The position numbers and the translations under genes were made by a program. Shown here piece by piece: positions 41,425 through 61,080 of a stretch of DNA of 64,000 nt (its first letter is position 1; every line of letters starts with the position of its first letter). This stretch comes from Clostridioides sp. ES-S-0054-01 (GTDB taxonomy: Bacteria; Bacillota; Clostridia; Peptostreptococcales; Peptostreptococcaceae), in the NCBI GenBank assembly GCA_021561035.1, contig CP067346.1, positions 589,001-653,000 on the forward strand. The letters run 5' to 3'. The notes under the pieces were generated by a model that ran no database searches, had not been told where the DNA came from, and saw only the letters and a program-made list of their open reading frames with translations.

Positions 41425-43111
41425 GACGATACTGTTACAAGGTATAGAACAAAAACTTAAAGAAATATATAAAGAAAAGTACAAACCAAAGTTCTTTGAT
41501 ATGATGAAAGCTACTATTGAGAAGTTTGAAGGTAAGGATTTTGACAAGGTGGATGCTATATCTGAAAAGAATGTATATTTAATAACTTACGGAGATAGTA
41601 TATATGAAGAAGGTGTACCCACTATAGATACTTTGAAGAAATTCTTAAACAATAAAGTAGGAGATACTATAACTGATGTTCATATACTTCCTATGTTTGA
41701 ATACACTTCAGATGATGGATTCTCTGTTGTTGATTATATGAAAATAGATAACAATCTTGGAAATTGGGATAGTATAAACAATTTGTCTAAAGATTATAGA
41801 TTAATGTATGATTTTGTTGCAAATCATATATCAAAGAGTAGTAGATGGTTTAAGGGATACTTAAGTGGAGAAGAGAAGTATCAAAATTATTTTATACCAG
41901 GAGATAAAAATTTTGATTACTCAAATGTAGTAAGACCTAGAACTTCTCCAATAATACATAAGTACCAAGGAAAAGACAGTGTGAAGACTGCTTGGACTAC
42001 ATTTAGTGAAGACCAAATAGATATAAATGTTAAACATTTCCCAGTACTTATAGAGATTACTGAAGTTTTGCTTAACTATGCATTAAATGGTGCAAATTCT
42101 ATAAGACTTGATGCTATAGGATTCTTATGGAAGGAGTCTGGTACTACCTGTATACATTTACCACAAACTCACATGATAATACAACTATGGAGAATAATAC
42201 TTGATTACTTTAAGAAAAATACTCAAATAATAACTGAGACTAACGTACCTCATTTAGAAAATATAAGCTATTTTGGTGATACTACAAATGAAGCACATAT
42301 GGTATATCAATTTACATTACCACCATTAACGCTTCATACATTCACTACACATGATTCTACTAAGCTTACAAAATGGGCTTCGACTATAGATAAGGTATCT
42401 GATAATGCTACATTCTTTAACTTCTTAGCAAGTCATGATGGAATAGGAATGAGACCTACAGAGGGTATACTTACAGAAGAAGAATGTAAAATGTTAGTAG
42501 ATAAGACTATAGTTAATGGTGGTAGAGTATCATACAAGGATAATCCAGATGGAACTAAGTCTGTATATGAGTTAAATATAAATTATTTAGACGCTTTATT
42601 AAATAAAGATGAAGATATAGAGGAAGATGTCCAAATACAAAAGATATTATCGGCACATGCATTATTATTATCATTTATAGGTGTACCAGCTATATACTAT
42701 CATTCTCTATTATGCTCTAGAAACTATTATGAAGGAGTAGAAAAATCAGGTATAAACAGAAGAATAAACAGAGAAAAGTTAGAGTATAGTAGGATTTGTT
42801 ATGAATTAGAAAATAATTCTAGAAGAAATAAGATATTTACTCAACTTAAAAATATGATAGATATACGAAAAGAAGAGAGTGCATTCTCTCCATATGCAAA
42901 TCAAAATGTATTGGATTTTGGAAGAGAGATATTTGCACTAGAGCGTGAGAATAAAGAAACTAATGAGAAGGTAGTATTTGTAACTAATGTTACATCTAAT
43001 GAGAGGACTATAGACTGTGGTTTTAGTGGTGTAAATATATTGGAAAATACTAATATCAAAGGTAAGCTAACTTTAGGTGCATATAAATTTGCTTGGATAA
43101 AAATCAAATAA
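41417..43111 (+). CDS. GH13_18 sucrose-phosphorylase-like enzyme
   Basis: A 564-residue protein with the GH13 catalytic residues: nucleophile in NSIRLDAIGFLWK, acid/base Glu in IITETNVPHLEN and the third Asp in FLASHDGIG. Subfamily 18 contains sucrose phosphorylase, sucrose-6-phosphate phosphorylase and glucosylglycerate phosphorylase. Downstream of a mannosylglycerate-type PTS and GH38, glucosylglycerate phosphorolysis to glucose-1-P and glycerate is the attractive reading, but is not proven. RBS TTAGGAGG inside the GH38 gene. Confidence 0.85.
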   Translation: MNKTILLQGIEQKLKEIYKEKYKPKFFDMMKATIEKFEGKDFDKVDAISEKNVYLITYGDSIYEEGVPTIDTLKKFLNNKVGDTITDVHILPMFEYTSDDGFSVVDYMKIDNNLGNWDSINNLSKDYRLMYDFVANHISKSSRWFKGYLSGEEKYQNYFIPGDKNFDYSNVVRPRTSPIIHKYQGKDSVKTAWTTFSEDQIDINVKHFPVLIEITEVLLNYALNGANSIRLDAIGFLWKESGTTCIHLPQTHMIIQLWRIILDYFKKNTQIITETNVPHLENISYFGDTTNEAHMVYQFTLPPLTLHTFTTHDSTKLTKWASTIDKVSDNATFFNFLASHDGIGMRPTEGILTEEECKMLVDKTIVNGGRVSYKDNPDGTKSVYELNINYLDALLNKDEDIEEDVQIQKILSAHALLLSFIGVPAIYYHSLLCSRNYYEGVEKSGINRRINREKLEYSRICYELENNSRRNKIFTQLKNMIDIRKEESAFSPYANQNVLDFGREIFALERENKETNEKVVFVTNVTSNERTIDCGFSGVNILENTNIKGKLTLGAYKFAWIKIK

Positions 43112-43360: not shown

Positions 43361-44071
43361 TTGATTAATATAGGGATATGTGATGATGAATTACATTATA
43401 GATTAAAGATAAAAGATATATTAAAAAAGGTATTAAGCTCATATACCATGGATTATAATATATATGAATTTTCATCAGGAAAAGAGTTGTTACGTAACTA
43501 TCCAAAAAATTTAGACATATTAATTATTGATATACAAATGGAGATATTAAATGGTATGGATACCTCAAGAAAAATACGAGAGTTTGACGAAAATCTGGAG
43601 ATAATATTTATGACTTCATTTCCTGAATTTATGCAAGAAGGGTATGAAGTCAAAGCATATAGATACATATTGAAACCAATAAATGAAAAAAAAATTACAA
43701 AAAATATTTTACCTTGTATAGATGAGATAATGAAAAAAAGGAATAATTATTTGACTATCAAAGTTAAGAACTATGTAGATAGGATTAAAATAGATTCTAT
43801 TATTTATATAGAAACAGATAGACCTAATATAGTGATTTATACACATGATAATACATACACTACAAAAATGAGTATTTCCAAAATAGAAAAAATATTAAGT
43901 GAATTTGGATTTTTCAGATGCCATAATAGCTATATAATTAATTTAAAATTAGTACAATCTATGAATGGAAATAGTGTAGTAATAAATGGAAAGAGTATAC
44001 AAGTAAGTAAATATAGAGTGAAAGGGTTAAAATTAGCAATAACTAATATATTAGGAGATATAATATGTTAG
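43361..44071 (+). CDS. agrA: AgrA-type response regulator
   Basis: A 236-residue protein with a receiver domain (NIGICDDELHYR; phospho-acceptor in LDILIIDIQM) and a C-terminal LytTR DNA-binding domain (LTIKVKNYVDRIKIDSIIYI and GFFRCHNSYIINLKLV). The start is TTG 43361, eight bases after AAAGGATG. The end overlaps agrC by 7 bases. It is the transcriptional output of the agr quorum-sensing circuit, expected to act on agr and perhaps on the peptide cluster downstream. Confidence 0.9.
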   Translation: MINIGICDDELHYRLKIKDILKKVLSSYTMDYNIYEFSSGKELLRNYPKNLDILIIDIQMEILNGMDTSRKIREFDENLEIIFMTSFPEFMQEGYEVKAYRYILKPINEKKITKNILPCIDEIMKKRNNYLTIKVKNYVDRIKIDSIIYIETDRPNIVIYTHDNTYTTKMSISKIEKILSEFGFFRCHNSYIINLKLVQSMNGNSVVINGKSIQVSKYRVKGLKLAITNILGDIIC

Positions 44072-45381
44072 AAACATTAAATATAAATCTTTGGGATATT
44101 ATTAATATAATCACAGGCTGTATAGATTGGATTATATTCTTTTTAGCTATGAGTATATTGGGGAAAAAAAATATATCTTTCAGAAAATATACAATTTATA
44201 TGATACTTGTACTCGTATTTATGTCATTGGTCAATTTTATGAATATATTTCCAAATTTTAAGATTATCATATGTATAGTAATAGGTTCTTTATTTTATAT
44301 TGCTTCATACAAAGAGAGTATATATAAATGTATATTAATTAGCTTATTATTTTGGTTAGGATTAATGATGGGGGAAGGTTTAGCTATAGGTATAGTTGTA
44401 GTTATAAATCAATTAAATAATATTGATATAATACTAAATGGAAATTTATTTAGGTTAGAATCCATTGTGATATCTAAAATATTCTTATTTATAATATTTA
44501 TATCAATTAAGTATTTTAAATTATCTATAGAATTTAAACCTAAGGATATGGTGCTTATAGGTTTACCTATATTATCAAATATAGTAAGTTTGTTATTAAT
44601 ATTTGGGTATAATCTTAAGAATAATTCTGTAAGCGATGATAATATATTTGTAATTATACTTTCAACTTTATTGATTGTGTCATCTAGCATAATAATTTTA
44701 ATAGTAATAGGGAAAATTGTACAAGATGATAAAGTCAAGTTAGAATATGAACTGATAAATGAGAGAATAAAAATAGATCATAAAAGTTATGAGTCTATAA
44801 ATGAAATACATGATAAATTAAAATATGTTTATCATGATTTAAAAAATCATATGATTTGTATAAAAAACTATGATACTAAAGAAGAAATTATATCTTATGT
44901 AAATAATTTAGAAAATAAAATAAATGATTTTGAGTATTTTAGAAATACAGGCAATAAAACATTAGATATAATTTTAGGAGAAAAGATATATCTTTGTAAA
45001 AAATATAATATTGAATTTGAAGACAGTATAAATATATCAAAATTACAATTTATTCAAGATGTTGATATATGTGCAATATTTGCAAATGCACTAGATAATG
45101 CAATTGAAGCATGTATGAAAATGAATAATAATACAGAAAAAAGAATAGAGGTTAAAGCTACATACGTAAATGGATTTGCCATAATAAAGTTCATAAATAC
45201 TAAAGTAAATGATATTAAGTTTATTGATGAACGTATTAAGACTAGTAAGGATAATAATAGGGTACATGGAATAGGTCTTGCAAGTATCAAATATATGGTA
45301 AGCAAATATGATGGAGAACTTACAGTTAATTACTCAGATAATGAGTTTATATTAAAAATAATGATACCAATAAAAGATTAG
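44065..45381 (+). CDS. agrC: AgrC-type sensor histidine kinase
   Basis: A 438-residue membrane kinase. Residues 1-215 contain six to seven hydrophobic helices that form the peptide sensor; the kinase follows with the phospho-acceptor histidine in YHDLKNHMICIKN, the N-box NALDNAIEAC and the G-box VHGIGLASIKYMV of the GHKL class. The start overlaps agrA. It should bind the cyclic peptide made from AgrD and signal to AgrA. Confidence 0.92.
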   Translation: MLETLNINLWDIINIITGCIDWIIFFLAMSILGKKNISFRKYTIYMILVLVFMSLVNFMNIFPNFKIIICIVIGSLFYIASYKESIYKCILISLLFWLGLMMGEGLAIGIVVVINQLNNIDIILNGNLFRLESIVISKIFLFIIFISIKYFKLSIEFKPKDMVLIGLPILSNIVSLLLIFGYNLKNNSVSDDNIFVIILSTLLIVSSSIIILIVIGKIVQDDKVKLEYELINERIKIDHKSYESINEIHDKLKYVYHDLKNHMICIKNYDTKEEIISYVNNLENKINDFEYFRNTGNKTLDIILGEKIYLCKKYNIEFEDSINISKLQFIQDVDICAIFANALDNAIEACMKMNNNTEKRIEVKATYVNGFAIIKFINTKVNDIKFIDERIKTSKDNNRVHGIGLASIKYMVSKYDGELTVNYSDNEFILKIMIPIKD

Positions 45382-45393
45382 GAGGAAGTACAA

Positions 45394-45537
45394 ATGAAAA
45401 AAATAGCATTAAGTTTACTTAAAAGTATGTCAACATTAAGCCTAGGAATATCTAGATTATCAGCAAATACTGCAAGCTCATGGATAGCTCATCAAGCAGA
45501 AGAGCCACAGGCTTTAAAAAAATTGAAAAAAAAGTAA
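45394..45537 (+). CDS. agrD: AgrD-type autoinducing peptide precursor
   Basis: A 47-residue precursor with RBS TTAGGAGG. An amphipathic leader (MKKIALSLLKSMSTLSLGIS) is followed by the presumed signal region NTASSWIA (residues 25-32) and a C-terminal recognition tail HQAEEPQALKKLKKK. The ring-forming residue is normally Cys; here only Ser28/Ser29 are available, which suggests a lactone rather than a thiolactone. Its place between agrC and agrB fits the agrACDB order. The exact boundaries of the mature peptide are not known. Confidence 0.9.
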   Translation: MKKIALSLLKSMSTLSLGISRLSANTASSWIAHQAEEPQALKKLKKK

Positions 45538-45601: not shown

Positions 45602-46186
45602 ATGTTTAAAAGTTTATCATATAAATTTGCAAATATTTTGGTTAGAAATGAAGTTATAGAAGATGAAGATTTTGAAATATATAGATATGGATTTGAGACA
45701 TTAGTTTATTTTATCATTAATATTTCAGTAGCATTACTTATAGGTATTGCTCTTAATAAATTTATACAAACAATTATATTTTTAGTCTGCTACTGTACTT
45801 TGAGGCAATTTACAGGTGGATATCATGCTAGAAATTATACAGAATGTACAATAACATTTGCACTAATTTATATATCAATTATTTTAGTTACTGAGAATAT
45901 AGACATTTATAAGTTTAAATATATATTAATACTATTACTTTTACTAAGTACAGTTATAATACATAAGGTTGCGCCCTTAGAGCATAGAAATAAACCTCTT
46001 AGTATCTATGAGAAGGAGAACTATAGAAATATTATAAAAAAGATAACATTATCAATAATTATAATAGTTATAATAAGTTTAATATTTAATATTATGAGTG
46101 AATACATTATATATTCCTCATTAGCTGTATTTTTAATTACAATATTACTATTAGTACAAATTATTATTAATTTCTTCAAAAAATAA
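45602..46186 (+). CDS. agrB: AgrB-type peptide-processing membrane protease
   Basis: A 194-residue membrane cysteine protease. The catalytic pair lies in RQFTGGYHARNYTECTITF (His and Cys separated by 6 residues), followed by about four hydrophobic helices and the conserved APLEHRNKPL loop. RBS AAGGAGG. AgrB cleaves the AgrD tail and helps form the cyclic peptide. It completes the agr locus. Confidence 0.93.
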   Translation: MFKSLSYKFANILVRNEVIEDEDFEIYRYGFETLVYFIINISVALLIGIALNKFIQTIIFLVCYCTLRQFTGGYHARNYTECTITFALIYISIILVTENIDIYKFKYILILLLLLSTVIIHKVAPLEHRNKPLSIYEKENYRNIIKKITLSIIIIVIISLIFNIMSEYIIYSSLAVFLITILLLVQIIINFFKK

Positions 46187-46886: not shown

Positions 46887-47051
46887 ATGGAAAATAAAAA
46901 ATTACAAATCGAAAAAATCACTGACAAAATAGAGATAGAAGAGGTAGAAGTGCAAGCAGATCCATGTAAAAATGATCCATATAATGGAATATATGATTGC
47001 TTAAGAGATTGTAGCTCAGGAACATCACCAAAAGGCTCACCAGCATATTAA
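46887..47051 (+). CDS. RiPP precursor peptide (three-Cys, CxxD motifs)
   Basis: A 54-residue peptide with RBS GAAAGGTGGG. The N-terminal half is a charged, helical leader (MENKKLQIEKITDKIEIEEV). The C-terminal part has Cys27, Cys38 and Cys42 in two CxxD units, CKND (27-30) and CLRD (38-41), plus a flexible Ser/Gly/Pro end SSGTSPKGSPAY. It is too short for most automatic gene calls. Placed directly ahead of three radical SAM maturases, a protease and an exporter, it is almost certainly their substrate. Cys-to-Asp thioether links of the ranthipeptide kind are a reasonable guess; the real chemistry is unknown. Confidence 0.85.
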   Translation: MENKKLQIEKITDKIEIEEVEVQADPCKNDPYNGIYDCLRDCSSGTSPKGSPAY

Positions 47052-47429
47052 GTTTTACTATGAAAGTTTAGATTATTGACAACAATAAGCCACCTGCTAT
47101 GCGGGTGGCATTCTTGGTTATACAAAAATTAATCATATTCTAACATAAGCTATTTAAGGATTTAACTTAATAAAGTTATTTAAAAATTATGTAAGTATAA
47201 AGGTATAGATATAATAGAATAACATATAAGTTTAGATTATACATGTTAGTCAAAGTCTCAATTTAAAATTTTATGTAGTACTTGAAATGCATCAAACTTA
47301 AAGTGTAAATAGGATAATAGAAAGTTTTATAAATAAGAATGTTATGTAATTAAGCAATGAGTTATGTCCCCAAAATAGGAAATTTGTTTTATAAGGTATG
47401 ATAAATTTTTGTCATGGAGGTGAGAAGTT
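47052..47429. other. Spacer between precursor gene and permease gene
   Basis: A 378-base gap with the hairpin at 47089 and an AT-rich remainder. It may carry a second promoter for the maturation genes; none was assigned. No further precursor-like ORF was found. Confidence 0.35.
47089..47109 (+). other. Strong hairpin after the precursor gene
   Basis: GCCACCTGC-TAT-GCGGGTGGC: a 9-bp GC-rich stem (one T-G pair) with a 3-base loop, in otherwise AT-rich DNA. No T-run follows, so it probably protects the 3' end of a short abundant precursor mRNA, or partly blocks read-through. Confidence 0.6.
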
Positions 47430-50003
47430 TTGTTTACAGTAAAACTTGCAATTTCTTATATGAAAAAACAAAGAGGAAAAACAGTAGCACTATTATCGAG
47501 TATTATACTTTCAGTCATGCTTATTTTCTCAATTATTGTAATTAGAGCCTCGGGTTATGATTCTCAAATACAAGAAGCAAAAAACTTACATGGTGAATAT
47601 CAAATATGGTTTGAAGGAATTGATATAAATAAAGCAAAAAAGTTGAAAAATGATACTGAAGTAAAAAAATCAAGCAGTGTTGAATATTTTTGTGAAGTAA
47701 TTAATAAGGCAAGTGGTGTTAAACTTGCTTTAAATTCATTCGATAAAGATTTTATAGAGTCACTTAATTATAAGATGATAGGAAGAAATCCAACTAAAGA
47801 AGGCGAAATAGTCATAGAAAAAGAGGTTGCAAAACAGATAGGTATAATTAATCCATTAAACAAGAATATTGATTTAATGTTAATGAATAAGTATGTTGAT
47901 AGTGATGGAACTAACAAAATGGATAGTGCCAATCAAACTTTTAAAATAGTTGGTTTAATTGAAAAGCCAAATAAATACTATACCTCTCTATCCGGTTCAC
48001 TAGGAGGAATTAAAACTCAGGCTTTTATATATAAAGGCACAAAACTTCCAATAAGAACTGAAGATACATATAAAGGTGTAATATTCCTTAAATCTGAAAA
48101 AAATACATCTAAATTTATCAGTAAAATGGAAAAGAAACTAAATCTTACTTGGGATTACTTACATGAAAATACAGAAGTTAGTGCAGCAAAACTATTAAAA
48201 GATTTATCTGAAAATAAGGAAAATATTCAAAAGATGTTTCTTTTAGTTATTGTATCTAGCCTTGTAATCTACAATATTTTTAATATTATTCTGCAAGATA
48301 TGATAGTTCAAATAGGACTTATGAGATCAATTGGTATGTCAAATAAGAAAATCAAGAGTATGTTTGCAGTACTGAGTCTTATTTATATAGTTTTAGGAAC
48401 GATAATAGGTATGTTACTTGGAATGATTTTATCATACATTGGAGTGAGATTAATCTATGGATATAGCTCTATGATGACTGTAGAGATTTCAAGTATAATT
48501 TATTCTTTTTCAGTTTCTACATTAGCAGTGTCAATAAGTAGTTTTATAGTAGTCAGAAAAGCTGTGAAGATGTCTATAATTAATTCAATAAGAAGTAGTG
48601 AAATGTATGAAAGAAAATTAAAATATAGTAGTAATAAAACAAACAAAACGCAGGGTAACATAATTAGAAGTCTTGCAATTAGAAATATAGGGAGAAATAA
48701 ATCTAGAACAATTATAACAATACTTGTGATTACCATGGTTGGAACAATGTTTATATTTAACCTTGGCACAAAAAGTCTATTAAAAGCCAACATAGAATCA
48801 GGAGTAACTGGTGGCGGACTTGGCATGTCATATGGAAGTGTAGATAAAACCGTAAGCGGTAGTTACAATGGTACAGAAAGCTTATTTTACAAAATTGATG
48901 AAAGTATGATAGAAGAGATAAAAAATATAGAAGGGGTAGAAAGTGTAGAACCAAACTTTTTTAATCCTAATGGATATATTTTATTATCTAAGGATAAAAT
49001 ATCAAAATCTTATAAAGAGGAACTAGATAGAAGAAATTTACTATTTCAAGACAAAAATGATAATGAATATCCACTTCTTATAAGAGGTTATAGCGACGAA
49101 TTATTAAAGAAAAGAGAATCATTTATTGAAGAAGGGAAAAATTTGATAAATACTAAAAATGGACAATATAAGAAAGTTATGTTGGTGAATAATACAAATT
49201 CACAAGTTACACATTCATTTGATGCTAAGGTAATTGAGAATGTAAAGGTTGGAGATGTTATAGACATAAAATTACCTGTATACAAAGATGGTACTCAAAA
49301 GTATGAAACATTTAAGGTTGAAGTTAGTGCGATTATGAAAGAAGTATATGCTGCAGCTCAAGATGGCAATGTTCATGCTAGTGGAGCACAAGTAATATTT
49401 AGAGAAGATGACTATAGAGAACTAACAGGTCAAAAGGAATATAATAAGCTTTATGTGATGACTCAAAAAGGTAAATTATATCCAGTGGAAAAAAAATTAG
49501 AAGAATTAACAAAGAATTATTCATTTACATCAATTGGTGGAAAAGGTGAGGATTTGAAACTGGTTGGGATACAACAAAGCTCAGAGGAAAGGCTTGCAGT
49601 AATATATCAATGCCTAATTATACTTATACTTGCTGTAAATAGTATTTTCATTATGAGAAGTAACATTATATCAAGGAGAAAAGAATTGTCAACGCTAAGA
49701 GCAATTGGAATGAGTATCAAGAGTATTAAAAAAGTTCTAATAATTGAAAGTGAATTATATGGAATCATTGCAACTATAATAGGAACTATAATTGCAACCA
49801 TATATTATAACTGGGGAATTTCAAAATCAAATAAAACTCTTTTAGCAGGAGGATTTAATAGGACTATAGAATATAACATTCCTTTTAATCAGATATTTAT
49901 ACTATTTGCGATTTTTATTATTATGGGGTTTGTTGCAGTATATCTATCTAAAGATAAGATTGAAGGAACAGAGATAACAGAGGGTATTTCACAAAATGAT
50001 TAA
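47430..50003 (+). CDS. FtsX-type ABC transporter permease
   Basis: An 857-residue permease with two FtsX halves: an N-terminal helix (residues 17-38), three helices at about 265-390, a second anchor helix near 430, an extracellular domain at 450-730 and a final three-helix bundle (about 735-850) with SRRKELSTLRAIGMS. The start is TTG, six bases after GGAGGTGAG. Its ATPase is most likely the gene at 54886. MacB/BceB-like pairs act in peptide export or in immunity to antimicrobial peptides, which fits this cluster. Confidence 0.88.
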   Translation: MFTVKLAISYMKKQRGKTVALLSSIILSVMLIFSIIVIRASGYDSQIQEAKNLHGEYQIWFEGIDINKAKKLKNDTEVKKSSSVEYFCEVINKASGVKLALNSFDKDFIESLNYKMIGRNPTKEGEIVIEKEVAKQIGIINPLNKNIDLMLMNKYVDSDGTNKMDSANQTFKIVGLIEKPNKYYTSLSGSLGGIKTQAFIYKGTKLPIRTEDTYKGVIFLKSEKNTSKFISKMEKKLNLTWDYLHENTEVSAAKLLKDLSENKENIQKMFLLVIVSSLVIYNIFNIILQDMIVQIGLMRSIGMSNKKIKSMFAVLSLIYIVLGTIIGMLLGMILSYIGVRLIYGYSSMMTVEISSIIYSFSVSTLAVSISSFIVVRKAVKMSIINSIRSSEMYERKLKYSSNKTNKTQGNIIRSLAIRNIGRNKSRTIITILVITMVGTMFIFNLGTKSLLKANIESGVTGGGLGMSYGSVDKTVSGSYNGTESLFYKIDESMIEEIKNIEGVESVEPNFFNPNGYILLSKDKISKSYKEELDRRNLLFQDKNDNEYPLLIRGYSDELLKKRESFIEEGKNLINTKNGQYKKVMLVNNTNSQVTHSFDAKVIENVKVGDVIDIKLPVYKDGTQKYETFKVEVSAIMKEVYAAAQDGNVHASGAQVIFREDDYRELTGQKEYNKLYVMTQKGKLYPVEKKLEELTKNYSFTSIGGKGEDLKLVGIQQSSEERLAVIYQCLIILILAVNSIFIMRSNIISRRKELSTLRAIGMSIKSIKKVLIIESELYGIIATIIGTIIATIYYNWGISKSNKTLLAGGFNRTIEYNIPFNQIFILFAIFIIMGFVAVYLSKDKIEGTEITEGISQND

Positions 50004-50037
50004 GTTTGAGATTCTAAGATAACATGGGGTGATAAGA

Positions 50038-51315
50038 TTGTTTGATGATATACAGATAAAGTTTAGAGAAAATGATTTATTAATAAACAAAAGAAATGGA
50101 AAAGTTATTCTATATAATAAAGAAAAAAAGAGACATGTAAAATTATCAGAAGAAGTATATGAATATACTAGACTTGCTGAAAAAAACAAGTGGAAAGTCA
50201 GAGAATTAATAGATTGTTTTAAAAAAGATGAAGATAAGAAATATATCGAATCTATATTAAATATTATGATAAAAAACGAAGTAATTGATGGGAATCTATT
50301 CAACAAAAAAAACTTTAAAGACATACATCTTTCTCTTACAAATAGATGTAATCTTAGTTGTAATCACTGCGTTTCAAGTTGTAGTCCTAAAGAAGAAGAT
50401 TATATGGATACTAGTATGATTTTAAAATTAATAGATAATTTATGTGAGTTAAATGTAAGAAGTTTGGTTTTAACTGGTGGAGAGCCATTGGTCAGAGAAG
50501 ATTTTTTTGAAATTGTGAATTATATCAAAAAAAAACTTCCATTAGAAGAACTTAGTTTATCAACAAATGCAACATTAATTAATGATACAAATATTGACTT
50601 TATTATCAGTAAATTTCATAAAGTTGATATAAGTTTAGATGGAATTGATGAAGAAACATGTAGCAACATAAGAGGAAAAGGTGTATTTAAAAAAGTATTA
50701 AATGTAGTGTATGAACTTCAAAATAAGAAATTTAATAATATAAGTTTATCTATGGTTTTTGGTGAAAAAAATTATCAAATGTCAGAAAAATTTAAAAAAC
50801 TTAATGAAGATCTTAATACAAAAGCTATTGAAAGATATTTTCTTCCGAGTGGAAGAGGTCTAATAAATAGAGAAATTTACTCAGATGAAAACTCTGTTTT
50901 ACCACTTGTGATACCTAAGTTTCGTGAAAATGAAATGAATGGTAAGAAGAATAGGATAAATCCGTGTTCGTGTTCATGTAATGCTTGTATTGAGCAAGTA
51001 TTTATAGATCATAAGGGAAATATATATCCTTGTCCCTCTCTTATGGAAAAGGAATACTTAGTTGGAAGTGTATTTGATAAAAAAATTATAAATAACCTGA
51101 AAGAGAATGACCTAAAAGAAAATCAAGCTTTTAGGAATCTTAATAAATTATATCCATTTAACTTTGAAAAATGTAAAGATTGTGATGTGAATATTTTTTG
51201 TTTTAAGTGTCCAGCTATGGTAAACAAAGTAAAAAATGATGATAAAGAATTAAACATATGGTGCAATTTAACGAAGAGAAATATGGAGCTAGCAATTTGG
51301 GGAGGTGAAGTATAA
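50038..51315 (+). CDS. Radical SAM/SPASM peptide maturase 1, with PqqD-like domain
   Basis: About 425 residues. The N-terminal 85 resemble a PqqD-like RiPP recognition element (LLINKRNGKVILYNKEKKRH, then winged-helix pattern). The radical SAM core follows with CNLSCNHC near residue 104 and LTGGEPL. A C-terminal SPASM region has CSCSCNACIEQVFIDHKGN and CKDCDVNIFCFKCP for auxiliary Fe-S clusters. TTG 50038 (after GGGGTG) is preferred over GTG 50029. It should bind the precursor leader and install a crosslink. Confidence 0.9.
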   Translation: MFDDIQIKFRENDLLINKRNGKVILYNKEKKRHVKLSEEVYEYTRLAEKNKWKVRELIDCFKKDEDKKYIESILNIMIKNEVIDGNLFNKKNFKDIHLSLTNRCNLSCNHCVSSCSPKEEDYMDTSMILKLIDNLCELNVRSLVLTGGEPLVREDFFEIVNYIKKKLPLEELSLSTNATLINDTNIDFIISKFHKVDISLDGIDEETCSNIRGKGVFKKVLNVVYELQNKKFNNISLSMVFGEKNYQMSEKFKKLNEDLNTKAIERYFLPSGRGLINREIYSDENSVLPLVIPKFRENEMNGKKNRINPCSCSCNACIEQVFIDHKGNIYPCPSLMEKEYLVGSVFDKKIINNLKENDLKENQAFRNLNKLYPFNFEKCKDCDVNIFCFKCPAMVNKVKNDDKELNIWCNLTKRNMELAIWGGEV

Positions 51316-52362
51316 ATGAAATTTACGATATTTGTTACAGAAAAATGTAATTTAAGATGTACATATTGCTATGAACGAGGAATGGATAGAGGTAAGAGCA
51401 TGGATATAAATACTGCTAATAAAACCATAGACTTTATTTGTAAGAATATTAAAAATGAAGAACTTGATATTCCATTATATATTGTATTTCATGGTGGAGA
51501 ACCTCTTATAAACTTTAAATTAGTAAAGCATATACATAAAGAGCTATCCAAAAGAGTATTGGAAAGAAAAATTATTTATGATATGACGACTAATGCAACT
51601 TGTTTAGATGAAGAAATTATAAATTTTATATGTAAAAATATAGATAATATTTCAATTAGTATTGATGGAACTAAGAAATTCCATGATAAAAATAGAATAT
51701 TTCCAAATGGTGATGGTAGTTACGATTTAGTGATAAAAAATGCCAAAAGATTTTTAGATATAGGCAAAGATGTCAGAGTAAGAATGACATATACACCAGA
51801 TACAATTTCTGAACTATATGAAAGTATAGCTCAAATTGTAAGGTATGGATTTACTAATATAGTACCAATTGCTGATTTTATGAGTTTAAACTGGACAAAT
51901 AATCATATAGATATAATTAATGAGCAAATTTCAAAGTTAATAAATTTAAAAAAAGAACATCCGAACATAGATATTAGCTTACTTGATATTAAAAATTTGA
52001 ATATTAAAAAGGGAGAATGTTTTGGTGGAATTGTCAGTTTTGCAATAGATGTTAATGGAGATATATTCCCATGTACTTTTAGTGTTGGAGATAATGAGTT
52101 TAAACTTGGAAGTGTCTTTGACAGAAATATTAGTGAAGAAAAAAGACAAGAGCTTATTAAAATTTATATTTCAGAGAATGAAGAGTGTAAGGATTGCTTA
52201 AGGAAAGAGTGGTGTACTTCAGTTAGATGTAAACTTATGAATAGAAAAGTTACAGGGGAATTTAATAAAGCAATTCCAATAATATGTGCACTGGAGAAAG
52301 TTATCTTAACAACAACAAGAAAAATAAAGATGGAAGAGAAATCTAAAGAGGCAATGATATAG
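51316..52362 (+). CDS. Radical SAM/SPASM peptide maturase 2, without recognition domain
   Basis: A 348-residue enzyme beginning directly with the radical SAM core (FVTEKCNLRCTYCYERGMDR, Cys11/15/18), HGGEPL, and a SPASM tail (GECFGGIVSFAIDVNGDIFP, then CKDCLRKEWC and further Cys). It resembles anaerobic sulfatase-maturase-type and CXXX-repeat-type peptide maturases. It starts on the base after maturase 1 stops (TAAATG). Because it lacks a PqqD-like domain it may rely on the partner enzymes for substrate binding. Confidence 0.9.
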   Translation: MKFTIFVTEKCNLRCTYCYERGMDRGKSMDINTANKTIDFICKNIKNEELDIPLYIVFHGGEPLINFKLVKHIHKELSKRVLERKIIYDMTTNATCLDEEIINFICKNIDNISISIDGTKKFHDKNRIFPNGDGSYDLVIKNAKRFLDIGKDVRVRMTYTPDTISELYESIAQIVRYGFTNIVPIADFMSLNWTNNHIDIINEQISKLINLKKEHPNIDISLLDIKNLNIKKGECFGGIVSFAIDVNGDIFPCTFSVGDNEFKLGSVFDRNISEEKRQELIKIYISENEECKDCLRKEWCTSVRCKLMNRKVTGEFNKAIPIICALEKVILTTTRKIKMEEKSKEAMI

Positions 52363-52425
52363 CATAAAAATTTAATATGGAAGTACAATTCTTTATACTG
52401 TCATAAATATAGGGGGTAATAAAAT

Positions 52426-53664
52426 ATGGAAGATAGATTTTTTATAAATGATGTATGTGACAACATAATAAATGAAAATCAAGTAATTCTTGCTAATAAG
52501 ATAAATGGTAAATGGATAAAAATTCCTATTGAATGTTATAAAGTTATAGAATATTCAATAAAAAATAAAAAACCTCTTGATAAACTGGAAGATGTATTTA
52601 ATTTTGATGAAGATAAAAAATATTATAAACAAGTTGTAGATAAATTAGAACAATTAGGTTTTGTAAGTAATTTTATTGTAGATAAATTTAAATTAGAGAG
52701 AGTGAATTTAGTTTCATTTTCTCCAACAAATAGATGTAATTTAAGATGCGATTATTGTTGTGCAGATTCTAAAATTGAAAATAAGGATTATTTGGATACA
52801 GAGGAGTTAAAAGAAGCAATAGATAATATAGTTAAAATAAACCCAAGAATTTTAACTATTACAGGTGGAGAACCATTACTTAGGGATGATTTTTTTGAAA
52901 TACTATCTTATACAAAAGAAAAATTCAAAGGAAAGATAAGGTTATCTACAAATGCTACTTTAATCAAAGAGAATCAGGTAGATGAGATAATTGATGGTTT
53001 ATATGCAATAGAAATTAGCTTAGATGGTTATGATGAATTAAGCTGTAGTAAGGTAAGAGGAAAAGGTGTATTTACTAAAGTAATAAATTTAATTAAATAT
53101 ATTAAATCAAAAGGATTTAATAATATTGGTTTGTCTATGGTTGTAGGAAAAAACAATGAAAATGACATAGATAAATTTAATAAGATAAATTATGAATTAG
53201 GGACAATTCCTATAATAAGAAATTTTATGAATATTGGTAGAGGAAATGAAAGTTATATTAGATACCTTAATGATGAACTTGATATTGGATATATTTGTGA
53301 AGATGATTATATAAATAAAAATAGTTTAAATTCAAATATGTGTAAAGCTGGTGTAAACCAAATAAGTATTGACTATAAGGGGGATGTATATCCATGTCCA
53401 AACTTAGAGTATGATGATTTAAAGATGTTTAATATATTACAATTTGATGAAAGTATGTTAGAAAAAATTTTAAACAGAAATATGGAAATATTTGATAAGT
53501 TTGATACTTTAAAGCCTATGAACATGGAAGAATGCAAAGATTGTAAAGTAAATGTATTTTGTACAACATGCCCATCTAAAATGTATACTTTAAAAAATAA
53601 TAAAGAGATGTTAAATTCAAATTGTAAAAAAATGAAAAGTATTTTAGAGCCTATTGTGTGGTAA
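52426..53664 (+). CDS. Radical SAM/SPASM peptide maturase 3, with PqqD-like domain
   Basis: A 412-residue paralogue of maturase 1. An N-terminal recognition domain (ILANKINGKWIKIPIECYKV) is followed by the radical SAM motif CNLRCDYC (Cys104/108/111), ITGGEPLLRDDFFEILSY, and a SPASM region (CKAGVNQISIDYKGDVYPCP and CKDCKVNVFCTTCP). RBS TAGGGGG. Closest to the first maturase in domain layout and motifs, suggesting duplication and then division of labour. Confidence 0.9.
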   Translation: MEDRFFINDVCDNIINENQVILANKINGKWIKIPIECYKVIEYSIKNKKPLDKLEDVFNFDEDKKYYKQVVDKLEQLGFVSNFIVDKFKLERVNLVSFSPTNRCNLRCDYCCADSKIENKDYLDTEELKEAIDNIVKINPRILTITGGEPLLRDDFFEILSYTKEKFKGKIRLSTNATLIKENQVDEIIDGLYAIEISLDGYDELSCSKVRGKGVFTKVINLIKYIKSKGFNNIGLSMVVGKNNENDIDKFNKINYELGTIPIIRNFMNIGRGNESYIRYLNDELDIGYICEDDYINKNSLNSNMCKAGVNQISIDYKGDVYPCPNLEYDDLKMFNILQFDESMLEKILNRNMEIFDKFDTLKPMNMEECKDCKVNVFCTTCPSKMYTLKNNKEMLNSNCKKMKSILEPIVW

Positions 53665-53744
53665 ATACTATTATTTTAAATATATACATACTAAAAATAT
53701 TTTTATAATATAAAGATTTAAGAAAGGTAAAAGTTGGTTGTTGG

Positions 53745-54788
53745 ATGGAAAAAATAAAAGTAGCAGTAGTTGATACTGGTATAGATGTAAATGATGATTC
53801 TATAAAAAAATATATAAAATTTAATAAAAATATTCAGCTTGAAGAAATAGTTGAATATAAAGATTTAGATGATACACATGGGCATGGAACTCTTTGTTCA
53901 AAAACAATCCTATCAGTATGTAGAAATACTGATAGGATTGAAATTTATCCAATAAAAATTTTTAATCAAGGAGGGCGTACTAGTGGAGAGAGATTATTAG
54001 AAGCATTAGAAAGAAATTTAGATTCAGATATCGATTTAATAAATATTTCAGCATCTACTTTAAATGATAAATATAAGCGAGAATTAAAATATATATGTGA
54101 AGAACTTTGTAAGAAAGGAAAAATTATAATATCATCTCACCATAAAAGAGCTAAGGATTGTGATAGTTTTCCTACTGTTTTTAATTCTGTTATAGGTGTA
54201 ACTGGAAGTAATGATATTTATAATGATAATGATTATATCTATGAAAAGGGAAAAAAGATTCAAATGATAGCGAATACAAAAGAGTGTTTTGTTGAATTTA
54301 GGAATGAAGTAACTCATTTTGGAAAGAGCAGTAGAGCTTCAGCTGTTGTAACAGGGATTATCTGTAACATATTTAATAAATATGGAAAAGTAATGTTTGA
54401 TGAACTTGAAAAAATTTTTGAAAAAGAAAGCTTAGATAAAAATATTAATACAGTTAAATCAAAATTTAGAAATAAGCAGAATGATTTTGATATATGTATT
54501 ACCAAAAACCAAAAATTAGATATTTCAAGACGAATTGTCAATATGATAAATAAAAAGTTTGCTGTACATAAAATAGACTTAGATTTTTTAGATAAATATT
54601 CTATATTTAATAACTTTACAGATTTAGGAAATCATAATGCGTTTAAGTTTCTTACAGAGATAAATAAAGAATTTGAAATTGAGATAAGTTATAAAGGACT
54701 GTTTTTATATGAGCTAGAGAATTTAAATGATTTGGTGAATTTGGTATGTAAGCATTTGAATAAAGCTAGTGTCAATAACTCTATTTAA
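53745..54788 (+). CDS. Subtilisin-like (S8) protease fused to a carrier-protein-like domain
   Basis: A 347-residue cytosolic protein without signal peptide. Subtilase triad: Asp10 in VVDTGIDV, His47 in THGHGTLC, Ser196 in GKSSRASAVVTG (normally GTSMA). The usual oxyanion Asn region (AAGN) reads SSHH, an odd change. Residues about 270-340 look like an acyl-carrier-protein fold (FTDLGNHNAFKFLTEINKEF, then ELENLNDLVNLV) but the DSL serine that carries phosphopantetheine is replaced, so it cannot be charged. Likely leader peptidase; the extra domain may dock the precursor or a maturase. Confidence 0.8.
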   Translation: MEKIKVAVVDTGIDVNDDSIKKYIKFNKNIQLEEIVEYKDLDDTHGHGTLCSKTILSVCRNTDRIEIYPIKIFNQGGRTSGERLLEALERNLDSDIDLINISASTLNDKYKRELKYICEELCKKGKIIISSHHKRAKDCDSFPTVFNSVIGVTGSNDIYNDNDYIYEKGKKIQMIANTKECFVEFRNEVTHFGKSSRASAVVTGIICNIFNKYGKVMFDELEKIFEKESLDKNINTVKSKFRNKQNDFDICITKNQKLDISRRIVNMINKKFAVHKIDLDFLDKYSIFNNFTDLGNHNAFKFLTEINKEFEIEISYKGLFLYELENLNDLVNLVCKHLNKASVNNSI

Positions 54789-54885
54789 TTAAAATCTATT
54801 TTACATAAACGAAAATACAATAAAAGTGAATATTTTATTTGATATTTTAAAATTGCACATTACTAGAAAAGAAATGGAGGAAATA

Positions 54886-55605
54886 ATGAAAACACTGAAA
54901 ATAAAAAATTTAAAAAAGATATATGGTAAATATGAAAATGAAGTTCATGCAATAGCAGGAATTGACCTTGAAATAGAACCTAAAAAGTTTACAGCAATAG
55001 TAGGAGCTAGTGGTTCTGGGAAAAGTACATTACTTCATTGTATGGCAGGTCTTGACAAACCAACATCAGGAAACGTGTATTTAGATGATTTAGATATTTA
55101 TACATTAAATGATGATAAGTTATCAAAAATACGTAGAGAAGAGTTTGGATTTATATTTCAAAGTTATAATCTTATACCTGTTATAAATGTATATGACAAT
55201 ATAGTATTACCTGTATTATTAGATTCAAAACGAGAGGATAAAACACATATAAATAATCTTATATTCCGTTTAGGATTAGAGTCACAAGTAAAAAGGTTTC
55301 CTAATGAGCTTTCTGGAGGTCAACAACAAAGAGTTGCAATTGCAAGAGCCTTAGCAAATAAACCATCTGTGATATTTGCAGATGAACCAACAGGAAACTT
55401 AGATAGTAAGACTACAGCGGAGGTAATGGAGTTGCTTGAAATTTGTGTAAAGGAGTTTTCTCAAACACTTGTTATGATTACTCACAGTGATAAAATAGCG
55501 GAGACTGCAGATAAAATAATTACTATAAGTGATGGGAAAATTGTGAAAATTTTAGATAAAAGTTTGAAAGAGCATAATATGGGTGAAACTGAAATTAAAA
55601 TTTAA
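54886..55605 (+). CDS. ABC transporter ATPase, MacB/LolD type
   Basis: A 239-residue ATPase: Walker A GASGSGKST (residues 40-48), Q-loop FQSYNLIP, signature ELSGGQQQRVAIARAL and Walker B VIFADEPTGNLD. This group pairs with FtsX-type permeases, so the partner should be the permease at 47430, eight genes' length upstream in the same cluster. ATG 54886 follows TGGAGGA; an ATG at 54826 has no RBS. Confidence 0.93.
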   Translation: MKTLKIKNLKKIYGKYENEVHAIAGIDLEIEPKKFTAIVGASGSGKSTLLHCMAGLDKPTSGNVYLDDLDIYTLNDDKLSKIRREEFGFIFQSYNLIPVINVYDNIVLPVLLDSKREDKTHINNLIFRLGLESQVKRFPNELSGGQQQRVAIARALANKPSVIFADEPTGNLDSKTTAEVMELLEICVKEFSQTLVMITHSDKIAETADKIITISDGKIVKILDKSLKEHNMGETEIKI

Positions 55606-55738
55606 TGTTGTCAAAGAAGAATAACTTTTAAATAATAAAATCCATATAGTAAATACATATCAATAATATAGAATATTAAAATAAAAAGTCTTGGAAGTTA
55701 TATTTAGTATTGATTAATAATTAAATAAGGTGGATGAA

Positions 55739-57583
55739 ATGAAGAAAAAGTGTTCTAAAAATAAAAAAATAGAAAATAGGAATAATAAGAATAAGAGCTT
55801 AAAACGATTTGCGTTCCTTACTTTTAAGAAGAATAAGGGAAAGCTTTTACTTTCGTTTATTCTGGTAATAATTGTAGCAGTAGTTGATTTAGTACAGCCT
55901 CAAGTAACAAGAATGATAGTTGATGAAGGGATAGGAACAAAAGATGTTAACCTTCTTTTAAAACTAATGTTTATATATGGAGCTGCTGGAGTATCTTCAG
56001 CAATACTTTATCTTCTTTTATCATATTTATATTCGGCTATAAAAAAGAATGTAACAGTAGATATAAAGATAAAATTACTCAATCATTTATCTAAACTATC
56101 AGGAAAATACTATTCAAATATAAAGACAGGGAATATTATTTCAATAATTGAAAGTGATATATTTATAATAGAAAATTTTGGAGCAGAACTTGCATTTTCT
56201 ATATTAGTAAATATATTTACAGCTTCAATGGCTTTATTTTTCCTAGTAAGAATGCAAGTTGATTTGTTTTTGATAGTTCTAATACTTCAAATAATTTTAA
56301 GTATTTTTCAAAATAAATTTACCAAACTTATATCTAAAAACACAAGAGAGATAAGAGAAGATTCAGGAAGTTTATCAAATAAAATCCAAGAATATGTTTC
56401 AAATATCAAGAATGTAGTTGTTTCAAAATCAAGAATGAAGTTTTTTTCATCATATCTAAGTGAAGAAAAAAATCTTATAAGAAAGTACTTAAAACTGGAT
56501 TTAATAATGAATGGGAATATTGCAATCGCAAAATCTATTAGTATCTTAGTAACAGTATCCATTTATGGTGTTGGAGGGTACAAGATAATAAGTGGAAATA
56601 TGACAATAGGAGAACTGCTTGCATTTCAACAATATACAAATATGTTTATTGGACCATGTATAAGTATAGTGAGAGCAAATACAAGAATACAACAGGCTAA
56701 AGCATCTTTAGATAGAGTATACTCAGTAATAGATGAGGAAATAGATATAAAAGTAAATAATAGAGGATTGAGAATAGAGGATAAAGAGTGCAATATAATA
56801 GAATTTAAGAATATCTATTTTTCATATAAAGAAATAGGAAAGAAAAAATTACAAAATTTAGAACAAGATGAGCAAATTGATTGTACATATGAAGATATAG
56901 AAACAGATAGTTATATTCTAAGTAACATAAATATTACATTTAGAAAGGGAGAAACTACAGCTCTTATTGGTGAAAGTGGAAGTGGGAAATCTACAATAGT
57001 AAATTTACTTTACAGATTATGGGATATTCAAAAAGGTGAAATAACTATTGATGGAATAAATATAAAAAATATAAATCTAAAATCTCTTAGAAAAAGTATA
57101 AATATTGTTACTCAAGATATGCTTATGTTTGACGATACAATTAGAAATAATATAAGTATAAATAAAAGTTTAAGTGATGAAGAACTTAAAAATATATGTA
57201 GTGTAGTAGGAATGAACGATTTTATAAGTAGACTTGAAAATGGATTTGATACAATTATAGGAGAAAAAGGAGTCAAGATATCAGGTGGTCAAAAACAGAG
57301 AATTGCACTCGCAAGGTCGTTAGTAAATGATAGTAAGATATTGATACTAGATGAAGCAACATCTGCACTTGACAATATATCCCAAAGCGAGATATTAAGA
57401 AATATTAGGGCGTATGTAAAAGGTAAGATAGTGATTATTATAGCACATAGACTTTCAACTATAAAAGATGCAGACAATATTTATGTTCTTGAAAAAGGAA
57501 AAGTTGTGGAATCAGGTAAAGATAAAGAACTATTTATAAGAAATGGTATATATAGAAAACTAGTTACTTTAAATACACAATAG
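55739..57583 (+). CDS. ABC exporter, fused permease and ATPase
   Basis: A 614-residue ABC exporter half-transporter: six membrane helices (about 40-320), then the ATPase with Walker A GESGSGKST, signature KISGGQKQRIALARSL and Walker B ILILDEATSAL. No N-terminal C39 peptidase domain, consistent with a separate protease (53745). An acidic insertion of about 28 residues (KKKLQNLEQDEQID...) sits between the first ATPase strands, unusual for the family. Start ATG 55739 after AAGGTGG. It is the probable exporter of the mature peptide and the last gene of the cluster. Confidence 0.9.
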   Translation: MKKKCSKNKKIENRNNKNKSLKRFAFLTFKKNKGKLLLSFILVIIVAVVDLVQPQVTRMIVDEGIGTKDVNLLLKLMFIYGAAGVSSAILYLLLSYLYSAIKKNVTVDIKIKLLNHLSKLSGKYYSNIKTGNIISIIESDIFIIENFGAELAFSILVNIFTASMALFFLVRMQVDLFLIVLILQIILSIFQNKFTKLISKNTREIREDSGSLSNKIQEYVSNIKNVVVSKSRMKFFSSYLSEEKNLIRKYLKLDLIMNGNIAIAKSISILVTVSIYGVGGYKIISGNMTIGELLAFQQYTNMFIGPCISIVRANTRIQQAKASLDRVYSVIDEEIDIKVNNRGLRIEDKECNIIEFKNIYFSYKEIGKKKLQNLEQDEQIDCTYEDIETDSYILSNINITFRKGETTALIGESGSGKSTIVNLLYRLWDIQKGEITIDGINIKNINLKSLRKSINIVTQDMLMFDDTIRNNISINKSLSDEELKNICSVVGMNDFISRLENGFDTIIGEKGVKISGGQKQRIALARSLVNDSKILILDEATSALDNISQSEILRNIRAYVKGKIVIIIAHRLSTIKDADNIYVLEKGKVVESGKDKELFIRNGIYRKLVTLNTQ

Positions 57584-58565: not shown

Positions 58566-59758
58566 TTAAGATATCTTATATTTTTTAGCATTTTTAAGAT
58601 TAATACTTGCATTTAAATCTCTATCAATAGATAATCCACATTCACATTTGTACACTCTATCTTTAAGTTTTAAACCTTTATTAATCTCTCCACATTGGCT
58701 ACAAGTCTTTGATGATGGATGCCATCTGTCAACTACTCTAAGTTCTATATTATTTTGCTTACACTTAGCAGTTAGTTTAGTTCTAAATTCAAAAAACTTT
58801 TGACTTGATATTGCCTTTGATAAATGCTTATTTTTCATCATTCCATTAACATTTAAATCTTCAATGGTTATATAGCTTGGCTTTTGCTCTATTACCTCGG
58901 ATACTGTTTTATTAATATAATCAATTCTTATATTAGCTAATCTTTGATGAATTTTTTGTACTTTGACTACCTGTTTTTGGATATTTTGACGAGTAGCTAC
59001 TCCTTCTTTTATATTTTTATTTCTTACTTTTAAACTCTCATATTTTCTTGAAAGTTTTCTTTGTTCTCTTTTTAATTTCTTTTCAACTTTTTTGACAGTC
59101 GAAGTCTTATTTATATTTTTAAATTTACTTGAACATATTGCAAAATCTTTAATTCCTAAGTCAATACCTATTCCTTCATTAGTACAGTTAGATACTTGAA
59201 TATCATCTTCCTCAACTAATATAGATACATAGTATCTATCAGATTTTTGACTTACTGTACCACTTTTAACTATTGAATTTGTTGGTATATATCCAAATTC
59301 TTTTAGTCTTACCCAACCAAGAGTAGGTATTTTGACCCTATGCCTTTCAATAGTCCAATCAGTTTTGTTATTCCTTGGAAAATATGCTTTAACATCCTGA
59401 TTTTTCTTTCTGATTTTTCTTTCTGATTTTTCTTTTTCTTGAACTTAGGAAAACCTTTAGTTTTTTTAAAGAAATCTTTAAAAGCTTTATCTCCATTCAT
59501 AATAGCTTGTTTTGTAGTCTTAGAAGATACATCTTTAATCCATTTCATATCTTGATTATTAGGAATATATTCATTATTTAACCATTTAGAAAAATCCATA
59601 CCGTTTATAAATTCACCTTTACTCTCATAAACTTCTTTATTGTGAGCAATATAGAAGTTATATATAAATCTACTAACACCAATCGTTTGATGTATTTTAG
59701 ATTTTTGTTCAGTAGTAGGATTAATTTCTATTTTGTATGCCCTTTTCAACTTCTTCAT
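58566..59758 (-). pseudogene. tnpB: IS605-type TnpB, frameshifted by a 13-bp tandem duplication
   Basis: Start MKKLKRAYKIEINPTTEQ at 59758. The frame is broken near 59400-59426 where a 13-bp unit (TTTTTCTTTCTGA on the plus strand) occurs about three times; two extra copies (26 bases) shift the frame. Beyond it, another frame is open to the end: GIDLGIKDFA (RuvC Asp), YITIEDLNVNGM (Glu), the zinc finger CSQCGEINKGLKLKDRVYKC and SIDRDLNASINL (Asp). All catalytic residues persist, so the inactivation appears recent. No tnpA gene accompanies it. Confidence 0.85.
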
Positions 59759-60345: not shown

Positions 60346-61080
60346 ATGAATTTAACAAAAGGATTGGATATTTTAAAAATTTCATCAAATGTATTAGGTG
60401 AAGATAAAGTTATGTATATTCCTGTAATCTATACAGAAGATGAAGCAACACTTGTTGATACTGGTCTTCCAGGGCAAGGTGATTTAATAATTGATGCTCT
60501 TAATAAAAGTAATACGAGCTTTGACAAGTTAAAAAATATAATAATCACTCATCATGATATAGACCACATAGGGAACATAAATTATCTAAGAGAAAAATCT
60601 AAGAATAATATTAAAGTATACGCATATAAAAGCGAAGTCAGCTATATAACAGGAGAGGAAACGCCTTTTAAACTTTATATGCTAGAACAAATGGTAGATA
60701 ATATTGATGATAAAATGCTTGGGATGTTAAATGTTATGGGGCTTGGATTTAAATCATCATATGCTGAAGTAGATATATCTTTGGATAACCATGAAATTTT
60801 GAATTTAGGTGAGGAAATTGAAGTTATACATACAGGAGGTCATACTAGGGGTCATATATGTCTTTATTTAAAAAAATCTAAAGTACTTATTGCTGGAGAT
60901 TTGCTACAGATAAATGATGGAGAACTTAAACCCGTTGATGTAATGCATAGCAATAAACAAGAGTTGGCAGAAGCTATTAAAAATATAAGTAATTATGATA
61001 TAGAAGATGTAGTTTTTAGCCATGGTGGATTATATCAAAAAAATATAATTGAAGCATTGAAAAACATAGTTATTGAGTAG
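60346..61080 (+). CDS. MBL-fold metallo-hydrolase
   Basis: A 244-residue beta-lactamase-fold protein with the HHDIDHIGN zinc motif at residues about 67-75 (HxHxDH variant), further ligands in HTGGHTRGHICLYL, AGDLLQ and FSHGG. Such proteins are thioesterases, lactonases or hydrolases of varied substrates. RBS AAGGAG. A single-gene unit closed by a strong terminator. An N-acyl lactonase or other specific role cannot be read from the sequence. Confidence 0.9.
   Translation: MNLTKGLDILKISSNVLGEDKVMYIPVIYTEDEATLVDTGLPGQGDLIIDALNKSNTSFDKLKNIIITHHDIDHIGNINYLREKSKNNIKVYAYKSEVSYITGEETPFKLYMLEQMVDNIDDKMLGMLNVMGLGFKSSYAEVDISLDNHEILNLGEEIEVIHTGGHTRGHICLYLKKSKVLIAGDLLQINDGELKPVDVMHSNKQELAEAIKNISNYDIEDVVFSHGGLYQKNIIEALKNIVIE

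Follow-up and report, generated by a model that had tools for sequence, protein, structure and literature searches.

What a short peptide gene in Clostridioides sp. ES-S-0054-01 is doing beside three radical S-adenosylmethionine (SAM) enzymes, a subtilisin-like protease and two transport systems is the question raised by positions 46887-57583 of the window analyzed here, a 64,000-nucleotide stretch (contig CP067346.1, positions 589,001 to 653,000) of a 3.93-Mb single-contig genome. All eight open reading frames (ORFs) lie on the plus strand, and both they and their domains were found where the original prediction had put them: after the precursor come FtsX, three radical SAM proteins with SPASM domains (rSAM_A, rSAM_B and rSAM_C), Peptidase_S8, an ATP-binding cassette (ABC) ATPase and an ABC exporter. 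The cluster is real and complete. We consider it quite probable that this is a cluster for a ribosomally synthesized and post-translationally modified peptide (RiPP), of a family without a model in the libraries searched, in which the peptide is crosslinked, relieved of its leader and exported, with FtsX and MacB protecting the producer and agr controlling production. Judging from sequence, a bacteriocin or signal with thioether crosslinks is the most likely product.

The precursor gene (46887..47051, +) starts with an ATG at 46887, preceded by GAAAGGTGG, and encodes 54 residues with three cysteines and a C-x-x-D-C motif; a terminator-like stem-loop with a 9-bp stem lies downstream (47089..47109, +). 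A search with the peptide turned up one further copy within the same genome as well as relatives from two congeners (E 2e-5 and 0.07), and neighbourhood profiles found relatives in Peptacetobacter, Peptostreptococcus, Tepidibacter, Clostridioides, Velocimicrobium, Lachnospiraceae and Paenibacillus. No family for it was found in Pfam or NCBIfam. For comparison we used 20 related clusters with a radical SAM gene, picked from several locus sets, one of which consisted of the best 80 of at least 210 loci. The near-identical L047 and L063 are both in this set, while repeat copies of a locus, the divergent L059/L169 variant and the distant loci L083, L095, L097, L103 and L116, with 600-residue proteases, were omitted. 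A precursor relative is present in 18 of the 20 clusters and none was found in L074 and L075; the L064 precursor was masked by an overlap filter in one count, and that of L173 was chosen by its cysteines, not by profile. A short precursor conserved beside modifying enzymes is the mark of a RiPP, and the proposal of a radical-modified RiPP pathway is supported; the opposite outcome, maturases accompanied by another substrate and an ORF that is not conserved, was not observed.

The C-x-x-D-C motif occurs in 23 of 24 precursors, against 0.6 expected with shuffled cores, a count that measures conservation rather than 24 independent cases because the sequences are related. It also occurs in four precursors outside the 24 (L169, two at L180 and a remnant at L181). 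The cores vary more than the leaders; between L043 and L171, 10 of 31 core positions are alike versus 19 of 24 leader positions. The presence of homologous precursors in homologous clusters of other genera, together with ratios of nonsynonymous to synonymous change (pN/pS) of 0.22-0.45 for the eight genes against the plasmid relative L171, at which synonymous sites are close to saturation, indicates that the small ORF is more than a chance reading frame. The 54-residue ORF is likely to be the substrate.

The precursor would be bound through its conserved leader by RiPP recognition element (RRE)-like domains of two of the maturases, rSAM_A (50029..51315, +; identified by domain match, alignment, model and tree) and its paralogue rSAM_C (52426..53664, +; domain match, alignment and tree). 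In the model of rSAM_A (predicted local distance difference test score, pLDDT, 87.5), the N-terminus consists of three strands (residues 17-22, 25-30 and 35-40) and three helices (41-52, 57-61 and 67-82), as in the three-strand winged-helix domain of an RRE; for rSAM_C the assignment is by alignment only. The best PDB matches of the model are CteB, SkfB and SuiB (template modelling score 0.50-0.54 by query length), with at least 440 columns aligned for CteB and SuiB. The large root-mean-square deviation, about 10 Å, suggests that the domains are placed differently. The CxxxCxxC motif and seven SPASM cysteines, which are expected of such maturases, are invariant in the alignments of the A and C types (19 rows) and of the B type (10 rows). 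The remaining enzyme, rSAM_B (51316..52362, +; domain and NCBIfam scores, alignment), has no RRE. It is present in 19 of the 20 clusters, each time with an RRE-type partner, and the three enzymes would probably form one complex that recruits it.

Three maturases for one precursor had been regarded as exceptional, and this view did not hold: three are present in 10 of the 20 clusters, two in nine and one in a single cluster. In a tree of 30 RRE-type maturases, the A clade has nine rows (99/99) and the C clade eight (100/100). Both clades occur in the window, two Paraclostridium sordellii plasmids, genome G006, Peptacetobacter and Peptostreptococcus, and thus three-maturase sets are old in the group. 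One could imagine that a single maturase does the chemistry with assistance from the others, in the way that TrnD assists TrnC in thuricin CD, and the nine clusters with two maturases would agree with such an arrangement. Nevertheless, the invariant cysteines of both alignments are unlike the shortened SPASM of TrnD, and the A and C clades are retained together in eight clusters (two of them the near-identical L047 and L063, and two rows on long branches); we rate this division of labour as rather unlikely.

The best NCBIfam model for rSAM_B is PapB (214.3 bits), below the 340 bits that define the PapB ranthipeptide maturase (NF047865), and the enzyme differs further from the PapA/PapB system in working beside RRE-bearing partners. 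A passage of PMC9413430 states that PapB links the sulfur of Cys to the beta carbon of Asp and accepts Cys-Xn-Asp with n of 0-6 in vitro. The affinity of rSAM_B to PapB and the Cys-x-x-Asp motif together suggest Cys-Asp thioethers. On our reading, thioether crosslinks from cysteines to acidic residues would be installed in the cytosol, the constant one within C-x-x-D-C. What weighs against this reading is that rSAM_A, rSAM_B and rSAM_C each score below the cut-off of every NCBIfam model among the matches listed, so that a different chemistry may be at work. The lachnocin family (NF038169/NF038170) gave a similar picture, in that two of 20 precursors touch its model (best E 0.008) and rSAM_B scores 102.9 bits to its maturase, for which the cut-off is 550 bits.

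The original prediction held that with three maturases the product may carry several crosslink types. Several residue correlations were tried and set aside, the first two as versions of a rule that would give each maturase its own Cys-Asp motif. An Asp immediately preceding the first cysteine of C-x-x-D-C appeared to be tied to rSAM_C (9/9 initially, with Asn in L066, whose genome is without rSAM_C), a rule refuted by two further precursors of genome G031 that show Asn though G031 has rSAM_C. By eye, an Asp two places before the first Cys is found in 12 of 12 precursors from A-clade clusters and in 0 of 12 from radical-SAM clusters without the A clade; because the A clade is one lineage, the correlation amounts to roughly one event. 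The sole precursor without C-x-x-D-C (L073) sits in a maturase-less cluster, and the only rSAM_B-profile match of that genome is longer and weaker, belongs to a class present in all 14 genomes searched and may be of the SCIFF type. The L181 remnant, from the same genome, keeps the motif, leaving one case of two for a loss of motif with loss of maturases. Separately, a variant cluster (L169:6674-19000 and L059) has a C-E-N-D-C precursor, rSAM_B-like enzymes and, by eye, a possible B12-type radical SAM protein.

The protease (53745..54788, +) has no hydrophobic segment, consistent with a cytosolic location; its model (pLDDT 90) matches subtilisins, and D10, H47 and S196 are invariant in 22 of 22 sequences. 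Its best NCBIfam model is QhpE (NF049966), at 86.9 bits against a cut-off of 165, which places it outside that family. In the maturation of quinohemoprotein amine dehydrogenase (QHNDH), as outlined in part of PMC7876137, Cys-Asp/Glu thioethers are formed, a subtilisin-like protease cleaves off the leader in the cytosol and ABC export follows, the parts being the radical SAM enzyme QhpD, the protease QhpE and the exporter QhpF. We infer a like order here, in which the protease would remove the leader after crosslinking. The two systems differ in that a short peptide takes the place of an enzyme subunit as substrate here, and in that the protease has an additional carrier-like domain.

This C-terminal domain (about residues 253-340; the model is helical from about residue 254) had been noted as an extra domain, which we confirm and to which we add an identity: it is carrier-protein-like. 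A profile of 15 relatives, compared with PDB at E 10, gave 19 matches, of which 14 are named carrier proteins. The best was 2lki (E 4e-5), an uncharacterised protein, and only this entry and one aminoacyl carrier protein (0.003) fell below E 0.01. Matches from Pfam and NCBIfam are weak only: acyl carrier protein models match up to eight of the 15 members and the TIGR04069 model four (best E 1.1e-4, the window's not among them), while the window's own domain matched no NCBIfam model and reached PP-binding at E 0.046, under the cut-off. In contrast to acyl carriers, which have a phosphopantetheine serine, all 15 members lack Ser at the aligned column and at the two columns after it. When the profile was aligned by hhalign with ten stand-alone TIGR04069-type proteins, the probability was 96.4 and E was 1.3e-9 over 86 columns, and by this comparison the domain is homologous to the stand-alone TIGR04069-type protein of the CcpM/CLI_3235 systems. 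By eye, these ten proteins have Ala or Pro at the serine position. The domain is found in 14 of the 20 cluster proteases, including that of Paenibacillus, which is absent from the profile; five gave no match and L168 is marginal.

The fusion suggests that the protease and the TIGR04069-type protein work together, and for CcpM systems it predicts a partnership between the TIGR04069 protein and the S8 protease. Among CcpM-type loci, an S8 gene lies in the fetched stretch of 5 of 13 (L158 and L161-L164), and of 5 of the 10 with aligned TIGR04069-type proteins. In our reading the domain is probably a docking site for the modified peptide or for the maturases. A more specific version, which we regard as speculative and rather unlikely, is that the serine-less domain handles peptide instead of acyl groups, holding the crosslinked precursor or the maturase complex so that leader cleavage waits until crosslinking is complete, with each maturase serving one of the three cysteines. 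If true, a carrier acting as peptide holder, joined to the protease in this cluster and stand-alone in CcpM systems, would account for the TIGR04069 protein.

The resemblance to CcpM systems (TIGR04065/66/68/69; SacP23) noted in the original prediction is supported; a radical SAM maturase, the S8 protease, the serine-less carrier domain and the ABC exporter are common to both. The cluster content of these systems is given also in PMC4573289 and PMC10731318, and agrA/C/B-like genes are present too at one distant CcpM-like locus (L167). Outright membership in these systems is nonetheless very improbable. CcpM (TIGR04068) has a cut-off of 500 bits, and rSAM_A, rSAM_B and rSAM_C score 69.9, 154.6 and 69.2. 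The CLI_3235 precursor model was not among the matches of 20 precursors at E 10 (HMMER filters discard most weak matches), TIGR04069 had no match at E 1e-5 in the window's genome, and TIGR04066 was absent from the families listed for the eight proteins. Moreover, the carrier is fused to the protease here, FtsX and MacB are added, the precursor family is another one, and two or three maturases of 340-450 residues replace one of about 480. Some parts may still share a common ancestor with CcpM systems. On these scores the system is best described as a variant of radical-SAM RiPPs that appears to work like QHNDH maturation and CcpM systems, yet falls below the score thresholds that define either of them, PapB or the lachnocin maturase.

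The ABC exporter (55730..57583, +; membrane and ATPase domains, no C39 peptidase match) would secrete the product. The FtsX-type permease (47430..50003, +; 857 residues, eight hydrophobic segments) and its partner, a MacB/LolD-type ABC ATPase (54826..55605, +; the true start may be a more internal ATG), probably serve in self-protection or as a second transporter. FtsX is retained at eight loci where no maturase is in view (L043, L045, L062, L067, L071, L072, L073 and L181), which fits immunity; most of these loci were found via the adjacent protease, three are short or edge contigs, and several retain protease and exporter as well. The locus in the window's own genome (L043:8608-11524; G000:C1:1162607-1165523) has an orphan precursor and an intact FtsX, with scraps of agrB and of the ABC exporter. 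Its FtsX is 83% like that of a P. sordellii plasmid (711/853) and 64% like the window's (541/851).

Some maturase-less loci tell against the proposed pathway. L067, L072 and L073 keep protease, exporter, FtsX and MacB, and in one of them the four genes show pN/pS of 0.06-0.17 against an allele with maturases; since these genes are kept without maturases and their pN/pS is low, this part may serve a separate function. Protease relatives also lie beside valS without any of the partner genes, and no FtsX is in view there. At these sites in Clostridioides and Metaclostridioides (L044, L060, L061, L076-L080 and L098), the maturase-less protease relative has a LytTR-type regulator and a 432-residue gene as neighbours (valS identified by eye).

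On the C. difficile plasmid p_TW11, a divergently oriented murJ lies beside a related cluster (L173:4907-6448), and no FtsX or MacB was found in the 17 kb seen. This is possibly target-based immunity, and it hints at a cell-wall target. As a general immunity mechanism, MurJ was not adopted, p_TW11 being the one case; in the two P. bifermentans records examined, of 55 murJ-matching plasmid records, no radical SAM genes lie within 10 kb of murJ.

As the original prediction stated, the cluster adjoins agr: agrA (43361-44071), agrC (44065-45381), agrD (45394-45537) and agrB (45602-46186), all on the plus strand, lie directly upstream. Their position suggests that they are the probable regulators of the precursor and would control production. 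This part of our explanation has evidence against it. A full agr system is present in four of the 20 clusters (window, L171, L172 and L046), agrA and agrC without agrB or agrD were found by profiles in four more (L047, L063, L066 and L168), and in 12 the agrA-agrC pair is absent from the stretch seen (agrC matches under 60 bits dropped). Between the window and L171, the agr proteins are also less alike than the biosynthetic ones. The four clusters with agrA and agrC but no agrB or agrD, and a G031 region that holds four precursors and two agrA-agrC pairs, would suit a crosslinked pheromone sensed by the cluster's AgrC-type kinase, that is, a signal rather than a bacteriocin. We think this unlikely, because the clusters with agrBD supply their own peptide and the 12 clusters show no such pair. 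The cores, more variable than the leaders, also resemble those of weapons, although diversification occurs in signals as well. The most likely product would be a bacteriocin of narrow range that has spread among Peptostreptococcaceae in part on plasmids.

The window's AgrD has Ser at the expected cysteine of the autoinducing peptide, as do L171 and L046, whereas L172 has Cys; the Ser suggests a lactone signal. Three copies of a motif, TCAAAGTCT, are present in the 64 kb, one at agrA, one ahead of the precursor and one ahead of FtsX. We did not use it as a shared promoter element because 4 of 100 shuffles reach three, it was picked from repeats, and L171 has it only elsewhere. The window's region was not among three promoter regions with common 11-mers, and there was no Rfam match.

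The cluster family is common to gut clostridia, is sometimes plasmid-borne and is named by no reference library used; no description of this cluster was found in searches of open-licence PMC papers. The present comparison gathers radical-SAM peptides from gut Clostridia into one broad family that is in part carried on plasmids. Related clusters lie on P. sordellii plasmids NZ_CP124296.1 and NZ_CP124282.1 and on p_TW11. The first has nearly the same layout, including agr and three maturases, with agrB preceding agrD; identities to the window are 61% for the precursor, 64% for FtsX, 70, 70 and 73% for rSAM_A, rSAM_B and rSAM_C, 63% for the protease, 78% for MacB, 55% for the exporter and 35-51% for agr. 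At one site, a 2.9-kb piece with the precursor and two maturases is present in G010 and absent from G006, and the other four genes are 96-99% identical (pN/pS 0.06-0.17). The region of the window is accessory, since the seven congeners yielded no full match to the upstream gene (41417-43111), the downstream gene at 60346 is present in all eight genomes, and three congeners have no cluster beside the latter. Downstream of the cluster, at 58566-59758, are fragments that by eye resemble an IS200/IS605-type TnpB gene. Elsewhere in the same genome (L170:2443-10423), another radical SAM gene (717 residues) is accompanied by an ABC exporter, a MacB-like ATPase and a weak FtsX match.
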